Positions 9,086 to 9,859 of a stretch of 64,000 nucleotides of DNA are shown here, piece by piece; within the stretch, counting starts at the first letter, position 1; each line of letters starts with the position of its first letter. Position numbers and translations under genes: made by a program. Source of the DNA: Candidatus Eremiobacterota bacterium. Lineage in GTDB: Bacteria; Vulcanimicrobiota; Vulcanimicrobiia; Vulcanimicrobiales; Vulcanimicrobiaceae. The stretch is taken from assembly GCA_019235885.1 (NCBI GenBank), contig JAFAKB010000071.1:1-64000 (forward strand), read 5' to 3'. The notes under the pieces were generated by a model that did no database searches, was not told the DNA's origin, and saw nothing but the letters and a program-made list of their open reading frames with translations.

Positions 9086-9514
9086 ATGCGCTGTGCGATC
9101 GGAGCCGACGACGTCGGCCCGCTGACCGATGCCCTGCTGGCCGAGCTGGAAAAGCGCGGTGCCGCGGTCACCACGTTCGGCGCCGTGCACGATCCGAACG
9201 ACAAAGAATGGGCGTCGATCGGGCGCGCCGTCGGCGAGGAGGTGGCGGCCGGCCGTGCCGACCTCGGCATCGTGTGCTGCTGGACGGGGACCGGAATCTC
9301 GATCGCCGCGAACAAAGTGCACGGCGTGCGCGCGGCGCTGTGCGCCGACGCGCTCACCGCGGAAGGCGCGCGCAAGTGGAACGACGCGAACGTGCTCGCG
9401 CTCAGCTTGCGCGCGACGAGCGCTGCGGTCGGCCTCGAGATCCTCGACGCGTTCATGTCGACCGCCGCAAGCGAGGACCCGTCCGACCGCCGTTCGATCG
9501 CCGCGCTCGAGTAG
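9086..9514 (+). CDS. RpiB/LacA/LacB-family sugar-phosphate isomerase
   Basis: 142 aa, normal length for the family, which interconverts aldose and ketose phosphates such as ribose-5-phosphate and ribulose-5-phosphate. The active-site region reads CCWTGTGISIAANK (about residues 69-82), equivalent to the CGTGxGxSIAANK signature with the catalytic cysteine. VHGVRAALCADALTA and NDANVLALSLR match further conserved blocks. The N-terminus MRCAIGADD replaces the usual aspartate-histidine start, so substrate preference may differ from classical RpiB. Confidence 0.85.
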   Translation: MRCAIGADDVGPLTDALLAELEKRGAAVTTFGAVHDPNDKEWASIGRAVGEEVAAGRADLGIVCCWTGTGISIAANKVHGVRAALCADALTAEGARKWNDANVLALSLRATSAAVGLEILDAFMSTAASEDPSDRRSIAALE

Positions 9515-9553
9515 CCGCGCGCTCCGCCCGTACGCAAAAAAAGAAATAGCGAA

Positions 9554-9579
9554 AGGGCCACACCGATCGGCGTGGCCCT
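9554..9579 (-). terminator. Intrinsic terminator at the end of the candidate ncRNA
   Basis: A perfect 8-bp stem AGGGCCAC/GTGGCCCT with a 10-nt loop. On the minus strand it is followed within about ten bases by a T-rich run ending in seven T. On the plus strand there is no T-run, so it serves the minus strand best, though it may also stop rpiB read-through. Confidence 0.65.
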
Positions 9580-9640
9580 CCGTAACCTGTTTCGATTGTT
9601 GCCGCAGCGACCAATCGGTCACCGCGACGCTTGTTCCTTC

Positions 9641-9672
9641 GGTGGATCCTCGGTCATCGAAATGATGCCGCC
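9641..9672 (-). repeat. Hairpin copy 2 of an imperfect pair, UUCG tetraloop
   Basis: On the minus strand GGCGG pairs with CCACC and an apical TCAT-TTCG-ATGA stem has the very stable UUCG tetraloop, which only the minus-strand transcript would form. It is preceded by AGGAG, as copy 1 is by GGGAG. Confidence 0.55.
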
Positions 9673-9766
9673 CTCCTGCCTTCGGATGAAGTTTGCGCTT
9701 GTCAGAAAATCGTTGTCGCTCTTGTCACCGCAGGCGCGCAGTCAGCCTGGCGGTGGCTTCGGAACC

Positions 9767-9794
9767 GGGTGGATCTTGCGACGTCAAGCCGCCC
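9767..9794 (-). repeat. Hairpin copy 1 of an imperfect pair
   Basis: On the minus strand GGGCGG pairs with CCACCC (one G-U) and CTTG pairs with CAAG, with a 6-nt loop and an AT bulge. It shares the closing helix, the AT bulge next to CCACC and a preceding GGGAG with the second copy about 125 bp downstream. Confidence 0.55.
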
Positions 9795-9830
9795 TCCCGT
9801 GTGTCGTCGTGAGTACCTCGAGGTGTCCTC

Positions 9831-9859
9831 ATCCTACCTCTGCGCTAGGGCAGGGTCAA
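9831..9859 (-). promoter_or_regulatory. Sigma70-like promoter for the candidate ncRNA
   Basis: Read on the minus strand, TTGACC (9859-9854) and TAGGAT (9836-9831) are separated by exactly 17 bp. The predicted start is near 9824. The next plus-strand gene starts at 9907 in the opposite direction, so this promoter faces only the intergenic stretch. Confidence 0.6.

Follow-up and report, generated by a model that had tools for sequence, protein, structure and literature searches.

A predicted small RNA gene was located on the minus strand of the window, by which we mean the whole 64,000-nt stretch that was analysed (Candidatus Eremiobacterota bacterium, assembly GCA_019235885.1, contig JAFAKB010000071.1, positions 1 to 64,000). 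The gene is convergent with rpiB (9086-9514) and divergent from a VTT gene, as described in the initial annotation of this DNA, and its features are listed in Table 1. The minus-strand TTGACC/TAGGAT promoter reported there was recovered, with no other promoter-like site in 1.9 kb (mean of 0.1 in shuffled sequences), and the strong hairpin with a T-run noted downstream was identified as an intrinsic terminator. The promoter, both copies of the motif described below, and the terminator were kept in alignments of the genus. The fold had a z-score of -2.34 on the minus strand vs -1.47 on the plus strand, which by itself is unremarkable or only modestly low; the real evidence is conservation.

Table 1. 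Features of the predicted RNA gene in the window.
Feature	Position	Strand	Description and basis
Promoter	9859-9831	minus	TTGACC-17-TAGGAT; promoter scan; conserved in the genus
Predicted transcription start	near 9824	minus	From the promoter position
Predicted transcript	9538..9824	minus	About 285 nt, 3' end in the T-run near 9540; from promoter and terminator positions; conserved across the genus
5' hairpin (P1)	9815..9824	minus	ACCUCGAGGU; sequence reading, pairs without formal count
Motif copy 1 (P2)	9768..9797	minus	GGAGG / stem / bulge / CCACC; GGAGG able to pair with CCACC
Micro-ORF 1	9725..9787	minus	MTSQDPPGSEATARLTARLR, then stop; UUG start 5 nt after GGAGG
Hairpin between motif copies	9726..9755	minus	CACCG-CCAGGC...GCCUG-CGGUG; loop UGACUGCGC conserved in the genus
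Motif copy 2	9641..9676	minus	Inner stem longer: CAUC...GAUG
Micro-ORF 2	9619..9657	minus	MTEDPPKEQASR, then stop; AUG start 14 nt from GGAGG, beyond the usual Shine-Dalgarno spacing
Hairpin 3' of micro-ORF 2	9601..9628	minus	Compensatory changes in the genus (columns 226-227 with 234-235)
Intrinsic terminator	9552..9581	minus	13-bp stem and T-rich tail

Two related hairpins, which had been noticed at a distance of about 125 bp, were found to follow a common pattern with a spacing of about 127 nt. Both copies fit GGAGGGCGRY N{8,26} GRTCCACC, for which the chance expectation in the window was 0.00. The UUCG tetraloop to which the initial annotation drew attention in the second hairpin is not a constant feature: the loop of copy 2 reads UUUCG, GUUCG, GCUCG, UCUCG, or ACUCG in relatives, and it is the CAUC/GAUG stem that is conserved. 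The P2 loop varied by genus as well, with UUGGAA in some genera and UUGAC, UUGAAC, or UUGUCA in others.

In a first search, a 401-bp stretch was matched in 9 of 10 other genomes of the genus, with E values down to 5.5e-80. Both motif copies were present in 8 of the 10 sequenced congeners, and one copy was present in a ninth. The exact pattern occurred in 43 of 101 genomes of the order, and a reversed control pattern gave no match. Of the 149 phylum genomes, 83 were matched by a covariance model of the motif (R1, 45 positions); all of these belong to the family of the window, and most had one locus each. A scan of genome contigs returned 34 stretches, and the titles of nearly all of them read Eremiobacterota/WPS-2 or simply 'bacterium'. 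Spread to other phyla was rejected, as a single 'Comamonas' match scored only 22 bits and looks like chance; a phage origin was also rejected, the strict pattern having no match in the viral contigs searched. As far as searched, the RNA family is restricted to one Eremiobacterota family. Two of the scan matches were titled Rhodospirillales (L048 and L064); they coincide by contig coordinates with contigs of G024 and G017, genomes of the window's family, and appear to derive from that family. In addition, a further copy of the RNA, diverged and at a separate locus, was present in some genomes (G064, G024, G107; loci L148, L153, L134, L162).

The genes on either side of the RNA were found to change across the family. 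The next called gene downstream was rimP (21 loci) or nusA (4 loci) in about half of the 49 loci scanned; the others had a gene for TetR, NUDIX, an ammonium transporter, or an aspartyl protease, or a convergent gene, the last being the usual case in the window's genus. On the upstream side, VTT was the neighbour in the window's genus and in a few more, and a dehydrogenase E1 subunit in another group. At L022, L038, L048, L125, and L151, a divergent dehydrogenase E1 gene adjoins the RNA, and near-cognate codons often take the place of canonical starts. A promoter-like pair scoring at least 9 of 12 was detected in 45 of 76 upstream regions of the family, vs 1.5% of shuffles, and sits at a similar distance 5' of most motif copies; the second copies in L061, L081, and L011 had no such pair upstream. 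A terminator-like hairpin was present downstream of the RNA in the sequences read from relatives. That the neighbours change while the promoter and the terminator stay points to a stand-alone gene.

The frequent adjacency to rimP and nusA would fit a cis-acting leader that controls rimP-nusA-infB and has been carried along where it now stands alone, but this reading is highly improbable, because the downstream gene differs in the remaining loci, the RNA faces convergent genes in the window's genus, and the rimP-adjacent loci hold separate elements after the terminator of the RNA. These comprise a promoter-like TTGCGG-18-TATGCT between that terminator and rimP, so that the rimP operon of these genomes apparently has its own -10 (TATGCT or similar) there, and a hairpin, GGGC...GUCCCGC, that resembles the published rimP-leader (PMC2965389). 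Identity with the rimP-leader attenuator itself (a 5' UTR of rimP with a GGGc...gCCC terminator) was rejected, given the variable downstream gene and the separate hairpin. The rimP-leader-like hairpin GCGUGGGCAGGUCCCGCGC, with a U-rich run, was observed upstream of rimP in Eremiobacterota, for instance at about +205 to +250 from the motif in L043.

No match to the Rfam 15 covariance models was obtained in the window at the gathering cut-off. At E<=10, nothing meaningful was found on the locus, and no match lay over the RNA in the loci of 20 relatives. The initial annotation had found no fit to RNase P, tmRNA, SRP, or 6S RNA, and this assessment was borne out: tmRNA, RNase P RNA, and SRP RNA were rejected as candidates, since each was detected above the cut-off elsewhere in G000, G006, G034, and G061, and 6S RNA (RF00013) was rejected, since the locus had no match and a weak full-length candidate exists elsewhere. 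What the RNA has in common with these four is that they are conserved structured RNA genes present in one or few copies per genome. The sub-threshold full-length 6S candidates (24-35 bits; G000:C17:5544-5725, L088, L089, L090) are probably diverged 6S RNAs missed by the Rfam cut-off. Further, G000 contained a second, partial tmRNA match above the cut-off (C10:62037-62338, 59.9 bits, model positions 22-341) besides its main tmRNA (G000:C68:18839-19197). In a search of the open-access literature, no account of small RNAs from this phylum was found. The RNA constitutes an undescribed family that is absent from Rfam.

In relatives, the RNA consisted of a 5' hairpin (P1), the motif (P2), a GGGC/GCCC stem (P3), and a junction (P4 with P5 and P6), followed by the terminator; in the window's genus, one hairpin and the second motif copy occupy the place of the junction. 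The P1 position was filled by different stems in other genera, such as GUCUC/GAGAC and GUGCCGG/CCGGCAC. In the seed alignment of 16 sequences, the fold was visible with little covariation (3 pairs), and a larger set was needed. When 71 loci were aligned to the model, two-sided changes were found in 25 of the 33 pairs of the larger fold, numbers that lean towards the model since the alignment was fitted to it. The number of cells with two-sided changes was 146, vs 28 in shuffles; none of 500 shuffles reached any of five measures, and slid structures lay far below. Within the motif, the inner stem covaried (GC/AU/UA/GU), and the outer GG.GG/CC.CC pairing was invariant in 73 distinct sequences, an invariance that is partly due to the seeds, whose search pattern fixed GGAGGGCG and TCCACC. 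Such invariance is also as expected if the ribosome fixes one strand. The proposal of a new structured RNA gene is thereby supported by conservation, covariation, and its own promoter and terminator, and on these comparative grounds we conclude that it is a real stand-alone small RNA gene.

The hairpins were found to contain a putative Shine-Dalgarno (SD) sequence and a short reading frame with its start codon, which goes beyond what had been described for them. The motif is laid out as GGAGG (SD) - stem - UUG - x - x - CAR - GAU - CCN - CCN - GGN, and the encoded micro-ORFs have the consensus M-x-[P/S]-Q-[D/N]-P-P-G and a length of 8-20 codons. Reading GGAGG as an SD agrees with the earlier suggestion that the GGA-rich runs may have a ribosome-site-like role. 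A conserved protein in the stretch had been named as an outcome that would speak against an RNA gene; it applies in part, given these micro-ORFs, and the RNA-gene reading is still supported. Micro-ORF 1 of nine congeners reads MTSQDPPG-xxAP-x-G followed by a stop (14 codons), relative to which the window's copy has a 1-nt insertion after the core. Micro-ORF 2 of congeners reads MTEDPPK...S before its stop. The distance from GGAGG to the start was 4-7 nt in most copies, namely the first ones, and 10-14 nt in second copies.

An ATG, GTG, or TTG in frame with the Pro-Pro codons was found in 67 of 75 copies (UUG in 63 of the 67), and in 0 of 75 for each of the other two frames. All eight copies that lack a canonical start have a near-cognate codon (CUG, AUU, AUC, AUA, or ACG) that keeps the frame and lies either where the start would be or one codon later, with a permutation product of 2e-5 that is rough because the genomes are related. 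The frame after the start reads x-[P/S/L]-Q-[D/N]-P-P-[G/K]. Gln was present in 74 of the 75 copies and Pro-Pro in all 75, where it is fixed by the CC.CC anchor. The CAR, CCN, CCN, and GGN codons varied in their third positions, and some copies had N, S, T, E, or G in place of the Asp of the core. In the wider family, 44 copies had 16-18 codons, ending in TAG (22), TAA (20), or TGA (2). In L130, L132, and L133, changes of +1 and -1 cancel, so that start and stop remain in frame.

These observations bear on the main rival, which is no longer the leading view: that the RNA is purely noncoding and structured, its GGAGG/CCNCC and purine-rich bulge binding a protein or the ribosome, with the frame being a by-product of fixed nucleotides and shared ancestry. 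The strong covariation of the structure is in its favour. So is the persistence of the motif without a canonical start (L022, L125, L144, L151, L160, L161, and copy 1 of L081), which indicates that the ORF may be less important than the RNA. Moreover, some nucleotides of the micro-ORF are forced by the P2 stem, and residue 3 follows the RNA, changing from P to L where the stem changes. A column-shuffle test of amino-acid substitutions in 29 distinct 17-codon ORFs was also without significance (z = 1.4; 83 of 1,000 shuffles as good). Against a purely noncoding RNA stand the starts confined to one frame with near-cognates in every exception, the use of all three stop codons at positions that are usually alike, and the typical SD spacing of first copies, and we regard this reading as rather unlikely. 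The RNA itself clearly matters, and translation of the micro-ORF is probable from the comparison of these copies. At the first Pro codon, the 75 copies had CCA (55), CCG (16), or CCC (4) and never CCU, which would complete the pairing CCUCC; it is as if full sequestration of the SD were avoided.

An alternative in which the peptide of 8-20 residues is the product, the RNA folds serving to stabilise or regulate its translation, draws on the conserved SD, start, and x-x-Q-D-P-P-G core, and on a tail, ARExRA[E/K], that is partly kept in one set of genera. Such a micro-protein gene is nonetheless improbable, considering that the tail is without conservation elsewhere, that a stop directly follows DPPG in L011 and L148 (the latter reading only MTPQDPPG), and that most of the RNA and of its covariation lies outside the ORF. 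The variation of residues beyond the core, together with a frame that can end right after DPPG, makes translation or pausing likelier to matter than the peptide.

The GGA within the SD was also considered as a binding site for CsrA, a gene for which was present in all 5 genomes tested (Hfq was present in 4 of 5). A CsrA-sequestering RNA would share GGA-containing hairpins with the CsrB/RsmY type. No array of GGA loops was seen here, however: five GGA were counted by eye in about 285 nt, no more than composition gives, and they lie outside conserved hairpin loops, the P2 loop having GGA only in some genera. A role as a CsrA sponge is therefore very unlikely.

The RNA is probably read by ribosomes or senses them. 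We tentatively prefer, at somewhat less than an even chance, a small structured RNA in which ribosomes entering one or two micro-ORFs in its 5' part would determine the fold. GGAGG would act as a real SD, partly hidden by pairing with the Pro-Pro codons of its own frame, and the micro-ORF would be translated, mostly from non-AUG starts. Ribosomes would then slow at the diproline, which has Asp/Asn before it and Gly after it. The QDPPG core agrees with published ribosome-stalling preferences, in which Asp before and Gly after diproline are stalling contexts relieved by EF-P (PMC4176338) and ribosomes pause at PPG when Gly occupies the A site (PMC4140641). A ribosome on the frame could open P2, P3, and the 5' arm of P4. 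The status of translation might in this way be passed to the fold, and thereby affect how stable the remainder of the RNA is or how it acts in trans; 3' of the micro-ORF, this remainder holds a three-way junction with covarying pairs in the wider family and a second SD/micro-ORF unit in the window's genus. The switch could act on stability, on the binding of a protein, or on base pairing to other RNAs.

Two specific forms of switching were not supported. For a ribosome-controlled antiterminator, the terminator stayed the minimum-energy fold 3' of the micro-ORF stop in the sequences folded. For alternative pairing between the 3' arms of P5 and P4, a species' own pairs were no more stable than cross-species pairs (-10.36 vs -10.28), whereas for P4 itself they were more stable (-19.34 vs -15.94). 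A further proposal, that the free-standing RNA senses the state of the translation machinery, with the position of the ribosome switching both fold and trans action, appears unlikely at present. The hidden SD, the non-AUG start, and the early diproline would tie ribosome loading and progress to initiation fidelity and to EF-P or Mg2+.

The nearest kind of known RNA is the dual-function or leader-peptide type, of which the present RNA, with its comparative signs of translation, is a candidate member. SgrS and VcdRP come from Gammaproteobacteria. The dual-function small RNAs SgrS/SgrT and VcdRP share with the present RNA a free-standing gene, an intrinsic terminator, and a short ORF inside, and the present RNA is likewise an independent gene with a promoter and terminator of its own and changing neighbours. 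Unlike in those systems, the ORF here has 8-20 codons and mostly a UUG start, the SD can pair with codons of the same frame, and residues beyond the core are unconstrained; homology was neither seen nor expected. In MgtL (EPDP near the N-terminus), early Pro and acidic codons control the RNA fold through ribosome drop-off (PMC11282234). Leader peptides of this type destabilise ribosomes or make them pause. Both RNAs have a very short ORF whose first codons include Pro and acidic residues (here MEPQDPPG), and in both ribosome behaviour would set the RNA fold, a likeness that is one of resemblance only. MgtL sits in the mgtA leader, whereas the RNA described here stands alone with no fixed downstream gene.

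The finding adds an undescribed conserved RNA family to a poorly studied phylum. In this family, one set of nucleotides serves both RNA structure and micro-ORF, non-AUG starts are used almost throughout, and the gene is free-standing and heads no operon. If ribosomes do control its fold, the RNA would be the equivalent of a leader-peptide attenuator in the form of a separate gene.
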